From Bacteroidota bacterium (GTDB lineage Bacteria > Bacteroidota > Bacteroidia > Chitinophagales > LD1): DNA of 64,000 nucleotides. Position numbers and translations under genes: made by a program. The stretch covers positions 1 through 64,000 of the forward strand of contig CANJLD010000007.1 of assembly GCA_947475165.1 (NCBI GenBank), given 5' to 3'. The stretch's first letter is position 1. Each line of letters begins with the position of its first letter. The notes below the pieces were generated by a model that had not been told where the DNA came from, searched no databases, and saw nothing but the letters and a program-made list of their open reading frames with translations. Positions 23,466 through 41,035 of the stretch are shown here, piece after piece.

Positions 23466-25052
23466 TTATTTCAACCGGTTCAACAAATTTTTTCCGCTTA
23501 CTGCACTGGCTGTAATTAAGCCGCTGAATAATGCTCCGCCCACTCCGCAGCTAACAATATCCTGACCGGTGAGGTAAAGATTCTTAACCGGTGTTCTTGC
23601 TTTCAAAAATTTCTGCTCAAAACGTTTTGTGGTATGGTCAATGCCGTAAATTTCTCCGTATTCGTAATTAGCAAAGTGCGCAGTACTGAGCGGTGTGGAA
23701 AGCTCGTAGTAATCAATTTTACCTCGTAACTCAGGGTGACGTTTATATAGTGCCTCTAACAAACGCTGTGCTAACTTTTCTTTAAACGCATTATAATCTT
23801 CACCGCGTTTCATCCATCGTTTGTCTTTCCATTTTTCGTACCACGCATATGGCGAAAGCGTTACAATTTCAATGGTTGTTTTGCCGGCATACCGGTTGTC
23901 CCAATCAGGGTCTTTTGATGACGGGAAAGATATATAAACCACCGGCAACTCTGCCTCAGGGTTGTTGATGTAGTCCTCCACGTTTTTATCGTGGTCGTAA
24001 TTGTTGGGGAAAATCCAGTAATTACTCTTGCCTAATTTTAAAGTGGTGTTGCTTTCGTTAATACCAATGTATAAACAAACATGCCCCACCGATGGCTGAA
24101 TGTTTTCAAACAATTTTTCAGTCTGTAATTCTTTTTTCTGCTGTTCCGGTAACAAGTGTTTGTAGGTTGTGTAAATTCCCGCATCGCTGATAACCACCGG
24201 TGCAAAAAACTCTTTAGCATCAAACATTTTTACACCAATAGCCTTTCCGTTTTCTACAATTATCTCCTTTACTTCGGCATTGGTAAATACTTCACCACCG
24301 GCATTTAAAATGGTGGGTGCAACGGTTTCGTAAATCTGCTGCGCGCCACCTACCGGATAACACGCACCTTTCATGTAATGTTTAATGAGTGCAGCGTGCA
24401 TTAAAAAGCTACTCTGTGCGGGAGGCAAACCATAATCACCGTATTGACCGGTGAGCACCGCAATAAGTTTTTTGTTTTTGGTTAGCGATTCTAAAACTTC
24501 AAGCGTTGTTTTGTTTCCTTTCAAGCCGCTTTTGCGCAACAGGTTTCCGAACAAAGCACTTAACCAATTAGGCAAAAGCTTTTCAGCAAAAAACCAACGC
24601 TGATTTTTTTGTGTAGCGTAAATCAACTCTACATAATCATCAATCGCTTTTTCTTCACCGGGGAAATACGATTTTAGTTTTGTTTTAAATTCTTCTGTTC
24701 CTGCAACAAAATCATACCGGTCGTTCCCGAAAAACATAATGTCGTATGGGCTTCCCATTTCTTCCCATTTCATTTTTCCACCGGTAATGTAGTTGAACAT
24801 TTTGTGCAGCTCCGTATGCTCGCGGTGCACATCACCTACATAGTGCACGCCTACATCCCATTCGTATTTGTTGCGCTTAAATACATGTGTAAATCCACCG
24901 GGCGTGTAGTGGCGTTCAAGCACCAAAACCTTCTTGCCTTCTTTAGCTAAAAATGCAGCAGTGGCAATACCACCCATGCCCGAGCCAATAACAATCACAT
25001 CGAATGTGCCTTCGATTTTTTGTTGCTTGTACGATTTTGAGAGAGAAGACAT
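23466..25052 (-). CDS. CrtI/RetSat-family FAD oxidoreductase
   Basis: A 528-residue flavoprotein with an N-terminal Rossmann dinucleotide motif (IVIGSGMGGIATAAFLAKEG, then VLVLERH) and a C-terminal TGQDIVSCGVGGALFSG FAD-contact segment. The GGFTHVFKRNKYEWDVGVHYVG region resembles all-trans-retinol 13,14-reductase (RetSat) and carotenoid isomerases/desaturases. Family members saturate, desaturate or isomerise polyenes or oxidise lipid-like substrates. It is first in an operon with an acyl-CoA dehydrogenase 11 bp downstream, which suggests a lipid or isoprenoid-derived substrate. No phytoene synthase is present in the window, so a carotenoid role is not established. Confidence 0.85.
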   Translation of the reverse strand: MSSLSKSYKQQKIEGTFDVIVIGSGMGGIATAAFLAKEGKKVLVLERHYTPGGFTHVFKRNKYEWDVGVHYVGDVHREHTELHKMFNYITGGKMKWEEMGSPYDIMFFGNDRYDFVAGTEEFKTKLKSYFPGEEKAIDDYVELIYATQKNQRWFFAEKLLPNWLSALFGNLLRKSGLKGNKTTLEVLESLTKNKKLIAVLTGQYGDYGLPPAQSSFLMHAALIKHYMKGACYPVGGAQQIYETVAPTILNAGGEVFTNAEVKEIIVENGKAIGVKMFDAKEFFAPVVISDAGIYTTYKHLLPEQQKKELQTEKLFENIQPSVGHVCLYIGINESNTTLKLGKSNYWIFPNNYDHDKNVEDYINNPEAELPVVYISFPSSKDPDWDNRYAGKTTIEIVTLSPYAWYEKWKDKRWMKRGEDYNAFKEKLAQRLLEALYKRHPELRGKIDYYELSTPLSTAHFANYEYGEIYGIDHTTKRFEQKFLKARTPVKNLYLTGQDIVSCGVGGALFSGLITASAVSGKNLLNRLK

Positions 25053-28118: not shown

Positions 28119-28166
28119 AAGATGGATGGCGAGAGATGCAGACCGGAACAAGGTAGCTGCGGGTAA

Positions 28167-28459
28167 GACCCCAACGATTTATGAGTCGTCCCCAGGAAAT
28201 TATGTCAAGTCCCCCGATGATTATGAGTTGTCCCCCGGAAATTATGTCAAGTCCCCCGAGGATTATGAGACGTCCCCAAAGGAATTTAAGCTGTCCCCCA
28301 ATGAATTTGAGAAGCCCCCAAGGAAATTTGAGCTGACCCATGATGATTTTGAGCTGTCCCCAAAGGAATTTGAGAAGACCCCAAGGAAATTTAGTCGTCC
28401 CCAGGAAAATTTGACCGGTCCCCCGATGAATTTGAGACGTCCCCAAGAAAATTTGACCG
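28167..28459. repeat. tandem array B, fourteen 21-bp units
   Basis: Fourteen consecutive units begin GTCCCC or a variant; the rest follows the pattern NNNGAATTTGAG or NNNGATTATGAG. Thirteen units are exactly 21 bp, and one (about 28377-28396) is 20 bp, which shifts the frame. Reading frames on both strands (28126-28632 plus, 28093-28446 minus) are by-products of the 21-bp period. The array starts 48 bp after the pbpC stop. The 20-bp unit argues against protein coding. Confidence 0.85.
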
Positions 28460-28650
28460 AACTACAGAGGGTTTTAGGGATAGGACAGACTTGGCTGGTG
28501 GGTTACCAAAATAAATCGCTCTTTCTAATTAATAAACCTACCTTGTTGTTGAAACCATCCTGTGAAATGTCCATGCTGCTCCATTGCCTGTGGCAAAGAG
28601 TACACCATCCTCATTCCATGCGACATTTTTGAACCACAAAATATCACACC
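28460..28650. other. leader region of the lipoprotein gene
   Basis: No gene is seen. The stretch between tandem array B and the lipoprotein start has no strong palindrome or promoter match that I can defend. Confidence 0.35.
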
Positions 28651-33989: not shown

Positions 33990-34916
33990 TTAAATCTTCA
34001 TCAACTCAATTACATCCTTGGCACCCAGTAACAAACCTAAATCAGCATCTGCTTTGGCAAAGCCAATGATGAAGCCACCGCCACCGGCTCCGCAAATTTT
34101 CAAATGAAAATCGTTGGTCTTTAAACCATCTTTCCAAACTTCTTTAAACTGATTAGGGATAAACTCGGGGAGCATATCATACTGTAATTGCGAAATCAAT
34201 TTTACGCAATCCATCAGTTTGGAATGGTTCTTCTGAATAAAACTTTCGATGGCAATATTGGTGGTTGGCACCAAACTCTTTTGAACAGTGTTCATGAATT
34301 TAGCGTCCTTACATTTCTCTAAAAACAAATTTACAAAAGGGGCTGTGCTGCGAGGGATATGCGTATTGATTAAAAATACTTTTACAGCCGGTTGTTCGCT
34401 CACCTGTAAGTCAAATGTTTCTGTCACTTCTCCTTCATTCACCAGCACTGCTTTATTCAGATAACAAACAATTCCGTCCAGTCCCGAACTTTTTCCGTGA
34501 TAATAGCTTTCAAGCAAAGCCAAATCACTTTTTACTTCACTTAACGACCGACTCTTTTTCCTGAATTTATTGTATTGATGGTAAACCGCAGCTACTAATG
34601 CACCGGAACTTCCCAAACCATATCCCTGTGGAATATTCGAATCGAAATACAAGCCTTGTTCAATATCCGCCAAGAATTGATTGGTATCGTATTGCGTAGA
34701 AATCTGCTCGTGATAGATAATGTAATTGGCGAAAAGTCCCAGTGATTTGTTAGACTCTTTAACCTGTTTATCTTTTTTTAAATCGCCAAACCGGAACACA
34801 CCGTTATAATGCTCCACCGGTGCCGCTAAACCCATAGCCCCTTTGTTGATGATGTGCTCACCGAATAAAAGAATTTTAGAATTGAATATTTTATGAGAAA
34901 CCTTTGACTTAGCCAC
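33990..34916 (-). CDS. mvk: mevalonate kinase (GHMP family)
   Basis: A 308-residue GHMP-family kinase that phosphorylates mevalonate. Motifs in order: FNSKILLFGEHIINKGAMGL (motif 1), PQGYGLGSSGALVAAVY (ATP loop, motif 2) and KICGAGGGGFIIG (motif 3). The KILLFGEH start, with its substrate-binding Lys and His/Glu, is typical of mevalonate kinases. It is the last gene of the four-gene mevalonate operon, 18 bp after the decarboxylase, and lies 3 bp from the convergent aroA stop. Confidence 0.9.
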   Translation of the reverse strand: MAKSKVSHKIFNSKILLFGEHIINKGAMGLAAPVEHYNGVFRFGDLKKDKQVKESNKSLGLFANYIIYHEQISTQYDTNQFLADIEQGLYFDSNIPQGYGLGSSGALVAAVYHQYNKFRKKSRSLSEVKSDLALLESYYHGKSSGLDGIVCYLNKAVLVNEGEVTETFDLQVSEQPAVKVFLINTHIPRSTAPFVNLFLEKCKDAKFMNTVQKSLVPTTNIAIESFIQKNHSKLMDCVKLISQLQYDMLPEFIPNQFKEVWKDGLKTNDFHLKICGAGGGGFIIGFAKADADLGLLLGAKDVIELMKI

Positions 34917-34934
34917 GGCTTACTTGAATTAGAA

Positions 34935-35990
34935 CTAATGAATGACAGTAACAGGACCTTTGCCTACATTGTCGTGAATCATTCTTCCTCCTTCGCAATG
35001 TTCTTCCAGTTCGGCATAAATAAACTTGTCGACTTTCTTGGCAATGTTTTTAGGAAAGAGCAAATGAATATTAGGGCCCGCATCTAAAGTAAAGTAAACC
35101 GGTAGCTTACTTTCTTCTCTAAACTTTCTGATTTTTTCAATCATAGTTAAAGTAGACGGAGCCATCAAAATAAAAGATGGAGTGGAACACATCATTAGCG
35201 CGTGAAGCGTCATTGCTTCTTCTTCTACAATAGCACCGAACTTTTCGAGGTCACCTTTTTTAAGTGCAGTGATAATCTCTTTCAAATTAGTCTCCGCCTG
35301 CGCGTAACGTGTTTTTGCAAAAGGGTTTGTCTTCATCAATGAATGCCCAACGCGGCTCGAAACTTTTTTCTCCTTACTGCTCGCAATCAAAATAGTGTTC
35401 TGAAAAGTTTTGAAAACAGGATGAAGATTTTTTTCATACGGAATGGCGTAGTCATCACTTGAACCTTTTACGATCTTTGTTTTACCCCATTGAGAAATTA
35501 AAGGATAAACGGAGCGTGATGCGCTGCCAGAGCCTAAACGCGCAAAGTGCGAAGCACGTTGAAGAAACTTTCCGTCAGATACTTTCTTCTTATCTAACTG
35601 CTGTTGCAAATCGCAAAGGCATATTGACAGCGCACTCATAGCCGATGCCGATGATGCAATGCCCGATGAATGTGGAAATGAATTAGTGGAGTGAATCAAC
35701 AAACCGTATTTATTCAACAACGGAAAATCTTTGCGGATGCTCTCGAAGAACTTAATCATCTTCAATTGAAAAGCCATGTTCGCTTTGCCATCGAAATAGA
35801 AACGCATCTCTATATCTTTCGACTTGGTTTCTTTTTCGACCAACGCAACGCTTGTTTCAGAGTAGCAATGCTCCAAAGTAAAACTGATAGATGGGTTAGC
35901 AGGAATCTGCACACCTTTTTTCTTCCCCCAATATTTTACCAGAGCAATGTTGCTCGGGCTTCTCCAGGTTGTCTTTTTAATTTCGTTCAT
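34935..35990 (-). CDS. mvaD: diphosphomevalonate decarboxylase
   Basis: A 351-residue GHMP-fold enzyme that converts mevalonate 5-diphosphate to isopentenyl diphosphate. Visible features: SPSNIALVKYWGKKKGVQIP (substrate-binding Lys and Tyr), SFTLEHCYSETSV, the ATP loop PHSSGIASSASAMSALSI, and the conserved TLDAGPNIHLLFP with its catalytic Asp. Full length. Its gene lies between the GYDIA-type kinase gene (9 bp upstream) and mevalonate kinase (18 bp downstream). Confidence 0.93.
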   Translation of the reverse strand: MNEIKKTTWRSPSNIALVKYWGKKKGVQIPANPSISFTLEHCYSETSVALVEKETKSKDIEMRFYFDGKANMAFQLKMIKFFESIRKDFPLLNKYGLLIHSTNSFPHSSGIASSASAMSALSICLCDLQQQLDKKKVSDGKFLQRASHFARLGSGSASRSVYPLISQWGKTKIVKGSSDDYAIPYEKNLHPVFKTFQNTILIASSKEKKVSSRVGHSLMKTNPFAKTRYAQAETNLKEIITALKKGDLEKFGAIVEEEAMTLHALMMCSTPSFILMAPSTLTMIEKIRKFREESKLPVYFTLDAGPNIHLLFPKNIAKKVDKFIYAELEEHCEGGRMIHDNVGKGPVTVIH

Positions 35991-35999
35991 AACGCAAGT

Positions 36000-36959
36000 T
36001 TAAGATTGATTCTCAAAAATAATTTCATCCCATTTAAATACGGTAGTGATATTTTTCGCTGCAAGGTATTCTTTCAATTCTGCTTCGCTTCTTTCATTCG
36101 TCAGCATTACAAAATCTCCACCCCATGCTCCTAACGATTTTACACTTCCCCAGTAATCTGTAAATAGCGAGTCTTTCACTTTTATTTGTTTGAGTTGCGA
36201 ACCTACTATTGTTTCGTGTTCGTTGATTAACTCTTCAAATACTTTCAAATCGCTGCATTGTAAAATGGCTTCTGTAATTCGCGTAAGTTCATTTACTCCG
36301 TATGTTTTATCTTTTATCAGTTCGCGATAATTTTTAATGGCTTGTGGCGAGGATTGTTTTTTGCCAAGATGCGTGAAGAAAATTTTATCACTGAAGACCG
36401 GTTTCCAATTTACGGCAACTGTTTCCGGTTGCTTATTTATTAATTGATAAAGAATAGCTGAATCATGTGCGGCACAAGCTACATCGTAACCGGAACCACC
36501 AATAGAATTTTGCAGCAATGTGTAACCATCCACATTTGCCCACTTAGCAATACAATGAATGAGTGTGGAACTGGAACCCAATCCCCAATCGCGCGGAAAC
36601 TCTAAGCATGTTTCTACAGCTATATCTTTTGCATCGGAAAGAAATTCCGGATTCAAATCTCTCGCTGCATTTAAAATAGTGTTTAAGTCTTTCGCTTCTT
36701 CTTGTGATGTATTTAAACAGGTAAGTGTTTCTTTATCAAAAGTAAATTGAAGCCATGGTTTGTTCTTATTATCAAGCGCAATCCAATACAAAATATTTTC
36801 TGATGAGTGAAGTTCCTTAACTCGTAGTGATTGTCCGAATTTTGTAGGAACCGCTAATGCCTGCGCTCCATCCAGCACAAAGTACTCACCGATTAACAGC
36901 AATTTGCCGTGACCGTAGAAACTCAGTTCATCTTCCTGTTTTGTAATCCGCAGTTTCAT
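36000..36959 (-). CDS. GYDIA-family GHMP kinase, candidate phosphomevalonate kinase
   Basis: A 319-residue GHMP-fold protein. Motifs: YGHGKLLLIGEYFVLDGAQAL (motif 1), RDWGLGSSSTLIHCIAKW (motif 2), the NSIGGSGYDVACAAHDSAIL segment that gives the GYDIA family its name (here GYDVA), and GAWGGDFVMLT in place of the usual motif 3. Its start overlaps the HMG-CoA reductase stop by four bases. The operon otherwise has mevalonate kinase and diphosphomevalonate decarboxylase but no classical phosphomevalonate kinase, so this protein is the natural candidate for that step. That assignment is an inference from context. Confidence 0.85.
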   Translation of the reverse strand: MKLRITKQEDELSFYGHGKLLLIGEYFVLDGAQALAVPTKFGQSLRVKELHSSENILYWIALDNKNKPWLQFTFDKETLTCLNTSQEEAKDLNTILNAARDLNPEFLSDAKDIAVETCLEFPRDWGLGSSSTLIHCIAKWANVDGYTLLQNSIGGSGYDVACAAHDSAILYQLINKQPETVAVNWKPVFSDKIFFTHLGKKQSSPQAIKNYRELIKDKTYGVNELTRITEAILQCSDLKVFEELINEHETIVGSQLKQIKVKDSLFTDYWGSVKSLGAWGGDFVMLTNERSEAELKEYLAAKNITTVFKWDEIIFENQS

Positions 36960-38290
36960 TTTCTCAATGCTTCAATAAACTCTCTCACGGCAGAAACGCT
37001 TACCAGTTTATCTTCAAAATATTGTTTAGCTTTTTCTACTTCTTCCTCCGTTGCCTGAAAACTTGCGAGTATGTTGGTGAGGTGCATTTTCATATGTCCC
37101 GCTTGTATTCCAATAGTGGTAAGCGAACGGAGAGCTGCGAAGTTTTGCGCCAGTCCAACACAAGCAATTATCTCCATTAATTTTTTTGCATTCGGATTTC
37201 CGAGTAATTCAAGTGAACGTTTTGCAAGAGGGTGAAGTGAAGTTAATCCACCAACTGTTCCAATAGCAATAGGTAAGGTCAGCCAGAATTTAAAAACACC
37301 ATGCTCCACTTTGCATTCGCTTAAACTCCGGTAAACTCCATCGCGACAAGCATAAGTATGTGCGCAAGCTTCTACCGCGCGAAAATCGTTACCGGTGGCA
37401 AGCACTACAGAATCTACTCCGTTCATTATGCCTTTGTTGTGTGTTGTTGCCCGGTAAGGGTCAATCCTCGCAATATTTACCGCGCGCTGAAAGTTGGCTG
37501 CAAATTCTTCGGCACTAACTTTTCCGTCTTCAAACTTTCCGAGTTCTTCTACTTTGCAACTTACCTCAGCACGCACCAAACAATCCGGTGTGTAGTTCGA
37601 AAGAATGCACATTACTATCTCTACATCTTTTTCTGCGGCAGAAAAAATATCACTGGCAACAATTTTTTCTTGCAACTGGCTTCCAAACTCTTCCAAACAA
37701 GAGTTAATAAAGTTCGCTCCCATCGAATCTACCGTTTCAAAATACGCGCGCAACTGGTAATAATCTTTTTCTAATTCGGTGAAATCGAAAAGCTCCATAT
37801 CAATTACTCCGCCACCGCGCTCTTCCATTTTACCGGTGATGTGTTTTACGCCTTGTTTTAATTCTTCCTTAATAGAATTGAAAAATGAAAACAACTTCTC
37901 CTTCGCTCCGTGATAGATGAAGTGAACCTGTCCTACTTTTTTTGTAGAAATAACTTCTGCTTTAAATCCCCCACGGCTTAACCAATATTTTGCCGAGTTG
38001 GATGCTGCTGCTACAACCGAACTTTCTTCAATCACCATGGGCACGGCATAAACCTGCTCGTTTATTTTAAAGTTGGGAGCAATGCCAAAAGGAACAGGAA
38101 AGTTGGTAAGCGTGTTCTCGCTAAAACCATCAAGCAGTTTCTGCGATTCGATATTATCGTGCCAATACTCGGCAAACTCTTTTACCACCTCTACCGGATT
38201 GGCATAAAGGAAATTCTTAGCCAGCCACGCAATTTTCTCGCGCTTGCCCATCTTCGAAAATCCTGCAATCTCTTTTTCGTTCTCCGCCAT
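36956..38290 (-). CDS. mvaA: hydroxymethylglutaryl-CoA reductase, class II type
   Basis: A 444-residue enzyme that reduces HMG-CoA to mevalonate. Features of the bacterial class II family are visible: FSKMGKREKIAWLAKNF, VPMVIEESSVVAAASNSAKYW, the catalytic MEERGGGVIDME, VDSMGANFINSCLEEF, THNKGIMNGVDSVVLATGND, the VGGLTSLHPLAKRS segment and the late TTIGIQAGHMKMHL with the catalytic His. No N-terminal membrane anchor, as expected. It is the first gene of the mevalonate operon. The gene is divergent from the lipocalin-synthase fusion, 206 bp away, so the two may share regulation. Confidence 0.93.
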   Translation of the reverse strand: MAENEKEIAGFSKMGKREKIAWLAKNFLYANPVEVVKEFAEYWHDNIESQKLLDGFSENTLTNFPVPFGIAPNFKINEQVYAVPMVIEESSVVAAASNSAKYWLSRGGFKAEVISTKKVGQVHFIYHGAKEKLFSFFNSIKEELKQGVKHITGKMEERGGGVIDMELFDFTELEKDYYQLRAYFETVDSMGANFINSCLEEFGSQLQEKIVASDIFSAAEKDVEIVMCILSNYTPDCLVRAEVSCKVEELGKFEDGKVSAEEFAANFQRAVNIARIDPYRATTHNKGIMNGVDSVVLATGNDFRAVEACAHTYACRDGVYRSLSECKVEHGVFKFWLTLPIAIGTVGGLTSLHPLAKRSLELLGNPNAKKLMEIIACVGLAQNFAALRSLTTIGIQAGHMKMHLTNILASFQATEEEVEKAKQYFEDKLVSVSAVREFIEALRK

Positions 38291-38496: not shown

Positions 38497-40767
38497 ATGA
38501 AAAAAACGTTGCCTACTGAACCGGTTAAATTTTTTGCTGCCGATTGGCCAAAAGACGGTCCCATTGATTTAAAGATTCACGATTTGCCTCACGCGTCATC
38601 CTCTACCGAGTGGTGGTATATGCACACACACTTAAAAGCGAAAGGAGGAAAAGAGTATTCGCTCTTCGCATCGTTTTTTCGTCATGCTATTTCGTTTGAT
38701 AAGAAAACGAATAAGCCCGATTACGCTTACTCAGTTATCTGGGGAATTTCTGATTTGAATGAGAAAAAATATCACACTGTTTCGCTGGTAGATAAACGCG
38801 CACCTAAACTTGGTTTAGAAAGATTGAAGAAAGGCGAACTGGTAAAAGACCCTTATATAAAGAGAGCTGCTATTGAAATGTTAAGCAAAGGTGTAATGCC
38901 TTACCCGGATGAATTGTTGAAAGGCACACCGGTGATATCACACTCCACGCTCAGTCTTAATTACGATGACAATACTTTTAAGAAACTGAAAGATGGTTCT
39001 TATCAATTGCATCTTGCGCATAAAGAATTAGAGTTAGGTGTAGACATAAATTTCAAACCTTTAAAGAAACCGGTGCGTCATGGAGATAACGGAGTAGTGC
39101 GCGGAGTTTCGGCAGAAGATATGTTCTACTACTTTATTCCTAAATGTAAAGTAACCGGTAGCTTAAAAATTAAGAAGGAGAAGATTGCTGTTGAGACCGG
39201 TTCCGGTTGGTACGACCATGAGTTTGGTTGCCATGCCGATAAAGAAAAACAGAAGGAAGGCGACATGAAAAAAGATGTTTCATGGAACTGGATTGCTGTG
39301 CAGTTAAATAATGGTTGCGAGTTGACTGCTTACGATTTGATTGATTTAAAGACCGGTGAAGATTGCGGCTCGTTTATTATCATGATTGATAAAGCAGGTA
39401 ACCGTCATTACTCCACCAACTTCAGTTTAAAACCTGCCGGTGAAATGTGGACGAGCACCCGCACCTTCAACGAATATCCGGAAGCGTGGAAATTGGAAGC
39501 ACCGGACTTTGGAGTATCGGTAGTTGCTACTGCTGCTTTCCCTAATCAGGAGTTTGCTACAGTTATTTCCAAGCCTGCTTTCTGGGAAGGTAGAATGAAT
39601 GTAGAAGGTAAGATGAAGGGCAAAAAAGTTTCGGGACCTGCATACATAGAGCGTCACGGATTTGTGAATAGCAGCAACATGAAAGAGTTTTTGAAAGCAG
39701 TTTCAAAAGCTACACTTAATTCTGTTCGTAAAATTTTGCCTTTAGAATTTGGTCAGGAAAAATTTGAAGAGTTGGTTTCTAAAAAAGGAAACAAACACTT
39801 AACAGAAGGTTTAGATAAGCAAGCGTATATCGAAAAATTTATTCGCCCTATTCGCGAGATTACCGACCGCAGCGGAAAGAGCTGGCGCAGTTATGCAACT
39901 ATTGCGTGTTGCGATGCGGTAGGAGGGAACTCGCAAGTAGCTATTGATTGGCTCGCTTTACCGGAGTTGATGCACGTAGGTTCGTTGATGGTAGATGATG
40001 TGCAGGATAAATCAACAGTGCGAAGAGGTGGACCGGCAGCACACGTAGTGCATGGCGAGGCAACTGCTATTAACAGCGGCACCGGTGCTTACTTTGTGGG
40101 GCAGTATTGTATTTACAACGTACATAAAAGTTTTGAAGGCAAGGTGCAGATTTACAATGCCTACTTCGAGGCCATGCGTGCTTCGCACAGCGGGCAGGCA
40201 ATGGATATTTACGGGCTTGATTATATGATGCCCGATGCGTTGAAAGATGATGCGGTAGCAAAACTTTTACAGAAAAGAGTAATTGCCACGCACCGGTTAA
40301 AGAGTGCCGCACCGGCTGCCTACTTAGCGCGCATTGGTGTAATGCTGGGCGAAGGAACCGATGAGCAGATAGATGCCATGGGAGATTATTTCGAAGCCCT
40401 CGGAATTTCGTTTCAAATAATTGACGACACGCTTAACCTGAAAGGTTTTAAAGACCATCTTAAAACAAAAGGCGAAGATATTACTGCCGGTAAAATTACA
40501 TACCCAATTGCAAAGGCTATGGCACTGCTCGAAAAGAAAGACCGTGCCCGCCTCTGGAAAATAGTGAGTATGAAAACCGAAAATCTTAAGCTGATTGCCG
40601 AAGCGGTTTCGTTACTCGATAAAGTAAAAGCAATTGAACTTTGCGAGCGCGAAGCCAAAACAATTCTCGAAAACGCCTGGAAGAAGATTGACCCGCTGTT
40701 GCGTGATAGTATGGTTAAGCTCAACCTTCGTGCGTTTAGCTGGTTTGTGCTTGAACGTACCTATTAG
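38497..40767 (+). CDS. CrtC/AttH-type lipocalin fused to trans-isoprenyl diphosphate synthase
   Basis: A 756-residue two-domain protein. Residues about 25-390 form a CrtC/AttH-like lipocalin domain: SSTEWWYMHTHL (36-46), LFASFFRHAI, GSGWYDHEFG (235-244), WNWIAVQLNNG (263-273) and GPAYIERHGF (380-389). Residues about 400-756 form an all-alpha trans-prenyltransferase with the first Asp-rich motif DDVQD (500-504) followed by RRGG (509-512), and a second motif DDTLN (643-647), as in GGPP synthases. No signal peptide is present and the frame has no break, so this is a genuine fusion. Known CrtC enzymes hydrate carotenoid C=C bonds; related lipocalins process other lipids. The synthase should condense IPP with an allylic diphosphate; the lipocalin domain may act on its product. 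Divergent from the mevalonate operon, which fits an isoprenoid role. Confidence 0.88.
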   Translation: MKKTLPTEPVKFFAADWPKDGPIDLKIHDLPHASSSTEWWYMHTHLKAKGGKEYSLFASFFRHAISFDKKTNKPDYAYSVIWGISDLNEKKYHTVSLVDKRAPKLGLERLKKGELVKDPYIKRAAIEMLSKGVMPYPDELLKGTPVISHSTLSLNYDDNTFKKLKDGSYQLHLAHKELELGVDINFKPLKKPVRHGDNGVVRGVSAEDMFYYFIPKCKVTGSLKIKKEKIAVETGSGWYDHEFGCHADKEKQKEGDMKKDVSWNWIAVQLNNGCELTAYDLIDLKTGEDCGSFIIMIDKAGNRHYSTNFSLKPAGEMWTSTRTFNEYPEAWKLEAPDFGVSVVATAAFPNQEFATVISKPAFWEGRMNVEGKMKGKKVSGPAYIERHGFVNSSNMKEFLKAVSKATLNSVRKILPLEFGQEKFEELVSKKGNKHLTEGLDKQAYIEKFIRPIREITDRSGKSWRSYATIACCDAVGGNSQVAIDWLALPELMHVGSLMVDDVQDKSTVRRGGPAAHVVHGEATAINSGTGAYFVGQYCIYNVHKSFEGKVQIYNAYFEAMRASHSGQAMDIYGLDYMMPDALKDDAVAKLLQKRVIATHRLKSAAPAAYLARIGVMLGEGTDEQIDAMGDYFEALGISFQIIDDTLNLKGFKDHLKTKGEDITAGKITYPIAKAMALLEKKDRARLWKIVSMKTENLKLIAEAVSLLDKVKAIELCEREAKTILENAWKKIDPLLRDSMVKLNLRAFSWFVLERTY

Positions 40768-40783
40768 TATAGGGTACGCCTGG

Positions 40784-41035
40784 GTCCGTTAAAGCCAATA
40801 ACGGGTGCGCCAGCACCAATATCGGTCTCCCTAGAGCCAATAACGGGTTCGCTAGCACTAATATCGGACTCCCTAGAGCCAATATCGGGTCCGCTGGAGC
40901 CAATAACGGGTTCGCTAGCACTAATAACGGACTCCCTAGAACCAATATCGGGTCCGCTGGAACCAATAACGGGTGCGTTATCACTAATATCGGACCCGCT
41001 AGAGCAAATATCGGGTACGTCAGCACTCTGATTGG
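40784..41035. repeat. tandem array C, twelve 21-bp units
   Basis: Twelve units of exactly 21 bp, each ending in AATAACGG or AATATCGG (the last in GATTGG), begin 17 bp after the fusion-gene stop. Units 4-6 and 7-9 are a 63-bp duplication differing at three positions, showing recent expansion. A minus-strand frame (40736-41083) translates to a heptapeptide repeat such as SPILVLANPLLAL, which is a by-product of the period. The units do not resemble those of arrays A or B. Confidence 0.88.

Follow-up and report, generated by a model that had tools for sequence, protein, structure and literature searches.

The contig CANJLD010000007.1 of a Bacteroidota bacterium (GenBank assembly GCA_947475165.1; Chitinophagales, LD1) carries, within its first 64,000 nucleotides (the stretch analyzed here, hereafter the window), a gene that joins an AttH/CrtC-type double lipocalin and a trans-isoprenyl diphosphate synthase in one protein (Table 1). 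It is a single intact frame of 756 codons, running from ATG to stop with no interruption, and the longest minus-strand open reading frame (ORF) within it has 103 codons. Such a fusion had been proposed in the initial annotation, made from the sequence alone, and the proposal holds: the Pfam domains are all above their cut-offs, the N-terminal half stays a lipocalin in profile searches, and the motifs EWWY, GWYDHEFG, AYIERHG, DDVQD and DDTLN are each found intact in the frame. Among 30 genomes of the host's family (its own included), the fusion is full length in 20, with 72 to 100% identity and no internal stops. Four others have partial copies at contig ends (G001, G008, G022 and G026, the last with the synthase half only), and the remaining six lack the fusion and have only other prenyl synthases. 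Since the gene recurs at full length in 20 of 30 genomes and the pieces end where contigs end, the fusion is not an assembly artefact.

Table 1. Parts of the fusion gene and neighboring mevalonate genes in the window (residues numbered as in the fused protein; A3 is the 49-row alignment described in the text)
Feature	Position	Strand	Evidence or remark
Fusion gene, 756 aa: AttH/CrtC-type double lipocalin (~37-386) and trans-isoprenyl diphosphate synthase (~395-756)	38497..40767	+	
CrtC N-terminal lipocalin domain, residues 37-244	38605..39228	+	PF07143, 1.8e-22, 81.3 bits vs cut-off 22.5
E38-W39-W40, first barrel strand	38608..38616	+	49/49 in A3
Helical insert, residues 100-137; modelled helices 102-111 and 119-129	38794..38907	+	Row spacing and model
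D240-H241; D240 aligned with catalytic Asp268 of CrtC	39214..39219	+	49/49 A3 rows; Roseobacter CrtC alignment
Second lipocalin-like domain (Lipocalin_9), residues 259-386	39271..39654	+	PF17186, 5e-19, above cut-off
WxW motif, W263 and W265, aligned with CrtC WxW	39283..39291	+	49/49 in A3
Trans-isoprenyl diphosphate synthase domain, fold ~395-756, Pfam 449-706	39679..40764	+	PF00348, 8e-44, 150.2 bits vs cut-off 27; 1wy0 Z 37.0
K461-x-W463-R464, at position of GGKRxRP motif	39877..39888	+	Invariant in A3; aligned with 1wy0
First Asp-rich motif DDVQD, residues 500-504, Gly at -5	39994..40008	+	DD[VI][QE]D 49/49; Gly 49/49
Second Asp-rich motif DDTLN, residues 643-647	40423..40437	+	DDxxN 48/49, DDALD 1/49
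3-Hydroxy-3-methylglutaryl coenzyme A (HMG-CoA) reductase, divergent neighbor of fusion	36956..38290	-	PF00368, 6.3e-88; local context, not conserved
GHMP-type kinase, mevalonate cluster (33990..36959)	33990..34916	-	
Diphosphomevalonate decarboxylase, mevalonate cluster	34935..35990	-	
Third frame of mevalonate cluster, kinase-like by eye, no Pfam match	36000..36959	-	

Searching named genomes with the lipocalin half yielded at least 80 loci. Among the 80 listed, 54 are fused (53 recognized by the first Asp-rich motif, plus L115, which the motif rule missed and which was scored as fused from the survey output), 25 are stand-alone lipocalins and one (L098), cut by a contig end, was left unclassified. 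Among the matches listed, fused loci include Flavobacterium, Spirosoma, Membranihabitans, Saprospiraceae, many Myxococcota and Thermoplasmata; taken together, fused homologues span Bacteroidota, Myxococcota, a cyanobacterium, Streptomyces, Thermoplasmata and haloarchaea. Three of the 236 matching plasmid records were covered to ≥80% (two Tolypothrix strains and Streptomyces canus). All three full-length copies are annotated only as “polyprenyl synthetase family protein,” and genome mining based on names would therefore miss the fusion. A frequency survey found the lipocalin profile in 47 of 192 genomes from the class of a Polyangiaceae metagenome-assembled genome (MAG), 24 of them strong matches in frames of 747 to 1520 codons, with the synthase half confirmed in 15 of these 24 (those whose sequence was examined); one more strong match (G579) is truncated, and weaker long-frame matches such as G546 fall outside the 24. 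In the same survey, the class of a haloarchaeon had 2 positive genomes out of 194 and the Flavobacterium genus group 5 out of 199. The gene is widespread but patchy. The initial annotation had not recognized this combination of enzymes; it is no one-off but a widespread family, and we found no description of a lipocalin-prenyl synthase fusion in the open-access literature, although subscription papers may hold one.

Conservation was assessed in an alignment (A3) of 49 rows, comprising 44 of the 53 named fused loci, the window protein and L063-L066. Residues invariant across it are E38, W39, W40, W238, D240, H241, W263 and W265 in the lipocalin half and K461, R464, H493, D500, D501, D504, R509, R510, Q640, D643 and D644 in the synthase half; the latter we take to have the roles that they have in known synthases, including the Lys, Arg and His for isopentenyl diphosphate (IPP). 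The nine named fused loci outside A3 agree at the lipocalin residues checked (D240, H241, W263 and W265); three of the nine are cut before the second Asp-rich motif and L149 lacks it. In the 80-locus survey, the loci truncated downstream of the first Asp-rich motif are L100, L132 and L138. The copies most divergent at the lipocalin active site (L174, L175 and L223) were kept outside A3 and treated separately. Over these 61 rows in all, the Asp at position 240 is found in 59 and WxW in 60. An AlphaFold2 model of the whole protein, built with the 49 aligned fusions (predicted local distance difference test [pLDDT] score, 89.5; predicted template modelling score, 0.87), has two barrels followed by a helical synthase fold from about residue 395. 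The spacing from D99 to residue 150 reflects the helical insert and is 48 to 52 residues in 52 of 52 fused rows; among stand-alone lipocalins, it is 8 to 14 residues in 21 of 25 rows and 50 to 53 in the other 4. The insert may face the synthase half. It is not diagnostic as a marker of fusion, being present also in the four stand-alone rows just mentioned (L150, L151, L156 and L161), the available flanks of which gave no synthase match.

The lipocalin half modelled alone reached a pLDDT of 81.4. Its closest matches in a fold search were AttH (PDB 2ich, Z 33.2) and kievitone hydratase (Z 30.4), followed by the Diels-Alderases CghA, Fsa2 and Phm7 (Z 22 to 24) and 25-phosphosteroid lyase (Z 21.3), after which the next row dropped to Z 10.5. 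Sequence profiles also match AttH (4.9e-31) and kievitone hydratase (1.1e-11), and the PF17186 match, the double-barrel fold and the similarity to 2ich place this half in the AttH/Lipocalin_9 superfamily. According to the literature on these proteins, His239, Trp241, Tyr266 and Asp268 are essential in Rubrivivax CrtC in one study (PMC4717167), and in a later one changes at D268, W110, W283 or W285 abolish or sharply lower CrtC activity (PMC12402844). The CrtC cavity is located between the two barrels, where the Asp protonates a terminal prenyl double bond, and the enzyme takes free C12-C20 terpenes too (PMC12402844). Kievitone hydratase hydrates a prenyl double bond (PMC5805349), and AttH had ligand mimetics bound in the N-terminal barrel and between the domains (PMC2954199). 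Aligned with Roseobacter CrtC, whose spacing fits the Rubrivivax/CrtC numbering, the window protein has D240 at Asp268 and W263/W265 at W283/W285, and E-W-W 38-40 is the likely counterpart of W110; His239, Trp241 and Tyr266 are replaced by D208, F210 and W238. Judging from these alignments, the Asp-plus-Trp core of a putative cation chemistry is retained and the CrtC-specific residues are lost. The Tolypothrix copy keeps the Asp at D240 and has R in place of H241. In the lipocalin half, 13 of the 49 A3 rows have a DDxx[DE] string; the window protein has none, and therefore this half has no conserved second Asp-rich motif.

The C-terminal half has the features of a PF00348 synthase, i.e., both Asp-rich motifs, the Lys, Arg and His for IPP and a GKxT, with Asn as the third Asp of the second Asp-rich motif in the window protein. 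Its model superimposes on the archaeal geranylgeranyl diphosphate (GGPP) synthase 1wy0 over 326 residues (Z 37.0, 2.2 Å, 26% identity; profile match, 2.8e-36). No named NCBIfam prenyl synthase model (IdsA, GGPP_syn, FPPsyn and others) reached its cut-off, the best being IdsA_Meth with 133.2 bits versus 468, and assignment to the family 2 encapsulin cargo polyprenyl transferases was rejected (NF041169, 109.7 bits versus a cut-off of 450). At position -5 of the first Asp-rich motif, there is a Gly in all A3 rows, where 1wy0 has Tyr and a decaprenyl synthase has Ala. A small residue at this position usually permits longer chains, and for this reason the product is likely to be C20 or longer. The host genome encodes two more prenyl synthases, whose matched stretches share 28% and 20% identity with the fused one.

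In a 46-row synthase tree, the fused domains form a clade (support, 100/99) apart from Roseobacter CrtE and 18 stand-alone Bacteroidota synthases, several of which come from fusion-bearing genomes; the tree was flagged for long branches meeting in some rows. Inside this clade, on long branches, are the plasmid synthases of Nitrosomonas stercoris and Streptomyces NBC_01431, without a recognized lipocalin. The main fused clade of the lipocalin tree (98/97) contains a stand-alone protein, the Niastella lipocalin, nested beside Flavobacterium (97/92) and devoid of the helical insert. Since it falls inside the fused clade and a search of the Niastella genome (L146) recovered two ordinary synthases only, with the fused type missing, this looks like a loss of the fused synthase. 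Three distant Bacteroidota fusions (L194-L196, 25 to 27% identity) have synthases that group with the fused clade and lipocalins that fall outside the main one, on a long branch. Given their placement and the three changes of the fused/stand-alone label required in each tree, the fusion may have had one origin or more than one. Bacterial and archaeal sequences are interleaved in the trees, which suggests horizontal transfer.

The neighbors of the fusion in the window are the mevalonate genes of Table 1 and a penicillin amidase family gene. The initial annotation had seen in the former an operon that would supply the substrate. The divergent HMG-CoA reductase gene is there, but the arrangement is not conserved: in stretches of 15 to 21 kb from 16 of the 24 fusion-bearing family genomes, mevalonate genes adjoin the fusion in two, the window and L191 (whose protein is 96% identical). 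Among the 53 named fused loci, at least one (L139) has an HMG-CoA reductase match, many of these loci being short or cut by contig ends, so that these counts are lower bounds. Hence, we reject mevalonate coupling as a feature of the family. Clustering by blastp of 745 ORFs (of which 50, being the query gene itself, were left out) from the 53 named loci plus L146, L147, L150, L151 and L161 revealed no widely recurring neighbor family, and the largest cluster (nine loci) resembles shadow ORFs antisense to the fusion, in genomes rich in GC. Directly 3' of the fusion gene, at 40793-41016, there is a tandem array of 21/42/63-base units. Units of these lengths also make up an array at 28182-28458, inside a short ORF (28126-28632). 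At the end of the window, a plus-strand frame (43726-63999) of at least 6,758 codons, with many cadherin/Big-like repeats recognized by eye, runs past the last position and apparently encodes a giant surface protein.

A link to glycosyltransferases and sulfotransferases is visible only in relatives and not in the window. In Tolypothrix PCC 7601, a protein of 1509 residues consists of sulfotransferase, GT1-type glycosyltransferase, lipocalin and synthase. The same order is found in the 1520-codon frame of the Polyangiaceae MAG and, by phmmer, in a 1499-codon frame of a haloarchaeon (L223). Another haloarchaeal frame (L149:8237-11911) has glycosyltransferase, lipocalin and synthase and stops short of the second Asp-rich motif, possibly as a truncated or frameshifted copy. 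A separate glycosyltransferase gene adjoins the fusion in Membranihabitans (L109), a Myxococcales MAG (L112), a proteobacterial MAG (L136), with a cytochrome P450 (P450) 2 kb upstream as well, and a Clostridia MAG (L140). In Spirosoma (L110), the downstream row contains a lipase-maturation-factor-like gene, an FkbM methyltransferase, a glycosyltransferase resembling monogalactosyldiacylglycerol (MGDG) synthase and two P450-type genes, and in Niastella (L146:8731-10972 and L147), an MGDG-synthase-like glycosyltransferase is followed by the stand-alone lipocalin, with overlapping frames. In Tolypothrix and Streptomyces canus (L174 and L175), the fusion is flanked by ATP-binding cassette (ABC) exporter genes, of DevC type in the former; ABC exporter genes also lie on the flanks of the lone synthase of Streptomyces NBC_01431 (L177). 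AttH itself presumably belongs to an attEFGH ABC-transporter operon; no ABC transporter genes adjoin the fusion in the window, so this is not an attEFGH-type context.

We also considered whether the host could make carotenoids. No match to phytoene/squalene synthase (SQS_PSY) was found in its genome, which is 99.7% complete, in a search that was positive in 7 of 14 control genomes. Among the 24 fusion-bearing family genomes, 17 have a phytoene/squalene-type synthase match and 7 do not (G000, G012, G013, G016, G017, G021 and G026, five of them ≥90% complete), whereas all six genomes without the fusion have one. The fusion is thus present in all seven genomes that gave no match and in 17 of the 23 that gave one, but this association between fusion and missing synthase is not significant (Fisher, 0.17). 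Carotenoid hydration in this host is unlikely because it has no detectable phytoene/squalene synthase. Incidentally, the window contains an FAD (flavin adenine dinucleotide) oxidoreductase on the minus strand (23466-25052) that resembles, by eye, retinol saturase/carotenoid isomerase, in a genome without a phytoene synthase match.

The best-supported explanation, to which we give about an even chance of being right, is a bifunctional isoprenoid enzyme, in which the synthase makes a prenyl diphosphate and the barrel then acts on the chain through a carbocation reaction started by an Asp (hydration or cyclization). Chain building followed by modification had also been the initial suggestion; what does not stand is a strict CrtC identity, with only Asp268 of the four essential residues kept. 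The data establish the fusion and its conservation, the motifs, both folds (as predictions), the partner domains of relatives and the lack of a detectable phytoene/squalene synthase in the host; catalysis, chain length, order of steps and product are inferred, as follows. The C-terminal half would condense IPP with an allylic primer into an all-trans prenyl diphosphate, probably C20 or longer, and the chain would then enter the AttH-type double barrel of the N-terminal half, in whose cavity Asp240 would protonate an isoprene double bond. The Trp cluster (W39/W40, W238, W263 and W265) would stabilize the cation until it is quenched by water, giving a tertiary alcohol, or by an internal alkene, giving a ring. 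The product would be a hydroxylated or cyclized prenyl diphosphate or a derived alcohol, which in several other lineages might be decorated by the fused or adjacent glycosyltransferase, sulfotransferase or P450 partners. Hydration or cyclization through Asp240 is the most economical account and would parallel the nearest fold relatives of known function.

Several observations weigh against this bifunctional enzyme. We know of no activity for any member of the fusion family, and to our knowledge no reaction has been assigned to AttH, the nearest relative of solved structure. Of the four residues that one study found essential in CrtC, three are replaced. In the haloarchaeal four-domain protein L223 (7722-12218, minus strand), the synthase is kept and the core is lost, with N in place of D240, R in place of W39 and W263 and H in place of W265; in Streptomyces canus, D240 is replaced by E and H241 by Q; and the Nitrosomonas stercoris plasmid protein (L176:7380-9329) combines a fused-type synthase with a decayed lipocalin half in which the Asp at the D240 position is lost. 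Coupling is not obligatory, since Niastella keeps the lipocalin without the fused synthase. Within the family, the neighbors of the fusion differ between species, and the window genome has no conserved ones. As for the proposed decoration, a glycosyltransferase was found in 7 of 53 named fused loci and in none of the 23 stand-alone loci that lie outside the fused clade (one-sided Fisher, 0.07), with queries drawn from fused loci and thus biased toward finding them there, so that the association is suggestive but not significant; the four-domain proteins form one clade and count therefore as one event; and no EryCIII-type glycosyltransferase was found in the window's genome (other glycosyltransferase families were not searched).

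The divergent copies of L223 and Streptomyces canus make the bifunctional enzyme, and the bolder extension given below, slightly weaker and slightly strengthen another view, rather unlikely in our judgment, that the lipocalin half is a noncatalytic carrier, which binds the finished prenyl diphosphate or prenol and then releases it or delivers it to a partner enzyme or a membrane. Carrying lipids is a classic lipocalin function, no reaction is known for AttH, ligand mimetics were reported in its N-terminal barrel and between its domains (PMC2954199), Svf1-type lipocalins gave a weak Pfam match (below cut-off), and L223 has been retained despite the loss of its Asp and Trp pair. Yet binding alone needs none of the Asp and Trp residues crucial in CrtC that all 49 A3 rows keep, and the fold-search relatives of known function are enzymes. 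The existence of single or decayed halves (the Niastella lipocalin, the related synthase of Streptomyces NBC_01431 and the decayed Nitrosomonas plasmid copy without the Asp) would fit two independent functions, the fusion serving only to co-regulate or stabilize a prenyl synthase alongside an AttH-like protein with a different role in the envelope. This we find improbable, as the fusion has been retained across phyla with both halves conserved and the Niastella lipocalin sits within the fused clade, having lost the helical insert along with the synthase.

Catalysis of another kind would be expected if the barrel acted like 25-phosphosteroid lyase, ionizing the prenyl diphosphate or eliminating phosphate as a class I-like terpene synthase or a lyase that forms prenols or prenenes. 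The fold is shared (Z 21.3, 277 residues, 4.5 Å), the PDB titles of the lyase point to a phosphorylated steroid as substrate, and joining such an enzyme to a diphosphate-making synthase would be logical; the accessible part of PMC8449060 does not name the lyase gene. However, AttH and kievitone hydratase are closer in fold, the Foldseek target TM-score (template modelling) for the lyase is 0.46 to 0.49, and the absence of a conserved second Asp-rich motif speaks against it as well, all of which makes a lyase quite improbable. A CrtC carotenoid 1,2-hydratase fused to a GGPP synthase for carotenoid biosynthesis is the reading to which we give the least credence, next to none. PF07143 is well over its cut-off, CrtC accepts the free terpenes already mentioned (PMC12402844) and 17 of the 24 fusion-bearing family genomes have a phytoene/squalene-type synthase, but three of the four residues found essential in one study are replaced, the host and six other fusion-bearing genomes of the family gave no match to such a synthase, and the six fusion-free genomes all did. 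For the host, we reject it on the residues and the missing SQS_PSY match.

If the bifunctional enzyme is correct and the barrel acts on its partner's chain, it would provide a plausible chemistry for AttH-type proteins, which have a structure and no assigned reaction; this β-barrel fold would join the enzymes that modify linear prenyl chains, and a family of bacterial and archaeal isoprenoid lipids or glycosides would await exploration. A bolder extension, possible but doubtful, is that the AttH-fold barrel represents a new terpene-modifying class that hydrates or cyclizes a chain still bearing its diphosphate and forms the core of a mobile modified-isoprenoid system of bacteria and archaea, in which the four-domain members would build a sulfated terpenyl glycoside on a single polypeptide and the product may replace carotenoid or hopanoid membrane lipids in hosts, like this one, where no phytoene/squalene synthase is found.

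Among known systems, AttH (NE1406, PDB 2ich) is the best match of the N-terminal half in both fold and sequence, sharing the EWW, WxD, WxW, QE and WEG motifs, but it stands alone, without a prenyl synthase, and the helical insert of about 40 residues found in the fusion is absent in 21 of 25 stand-alone relatives. Kievitone hydratase (PDB 7a0q/7a0t) has the same fold (Z 30.4, 288 residues, 2.9 Å) and keeps the Asp and WxW; it is, however, a secreted, unfused fungal enzyme acting on a prenylated isoflavonoid, with 18% identity. CrtC shares the PF07143 match, the catalytic Asp and the WxW pair with the fusion, which in turn lacks His239, Trp241 and Tyr266 and is found in a host without a phytoene synthase match. 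The C-terminal half matches best the Pyrococcus horikoshii GGPP synthase (1wy0) and IdsA-type short-chain synthases, from which it differs by Gly instead of Tyr at -5, Asn as the third Asp of the second motif and KxWR instead of KRxR. One chain likewise holds a prenyl synthase and a product-modifying domain in PvCPS, a bifunctional copalyl diphosphate synthase of fungi (PDB titles). The modifying domain of PvCPS is a helical class II cyclase, whereas that of the fusion is modelled as a double β-barrel of unrelated fold, and a PvCPS-type class II cyclase/prenyl synthase was rejected for this reason. Both halves thus come from known superfamilies, and while a prenyl synthase joined to a modifying enzyme has a precedent in fungi, we found its combination with a lipocalin nowhere in the open-access literature searched.

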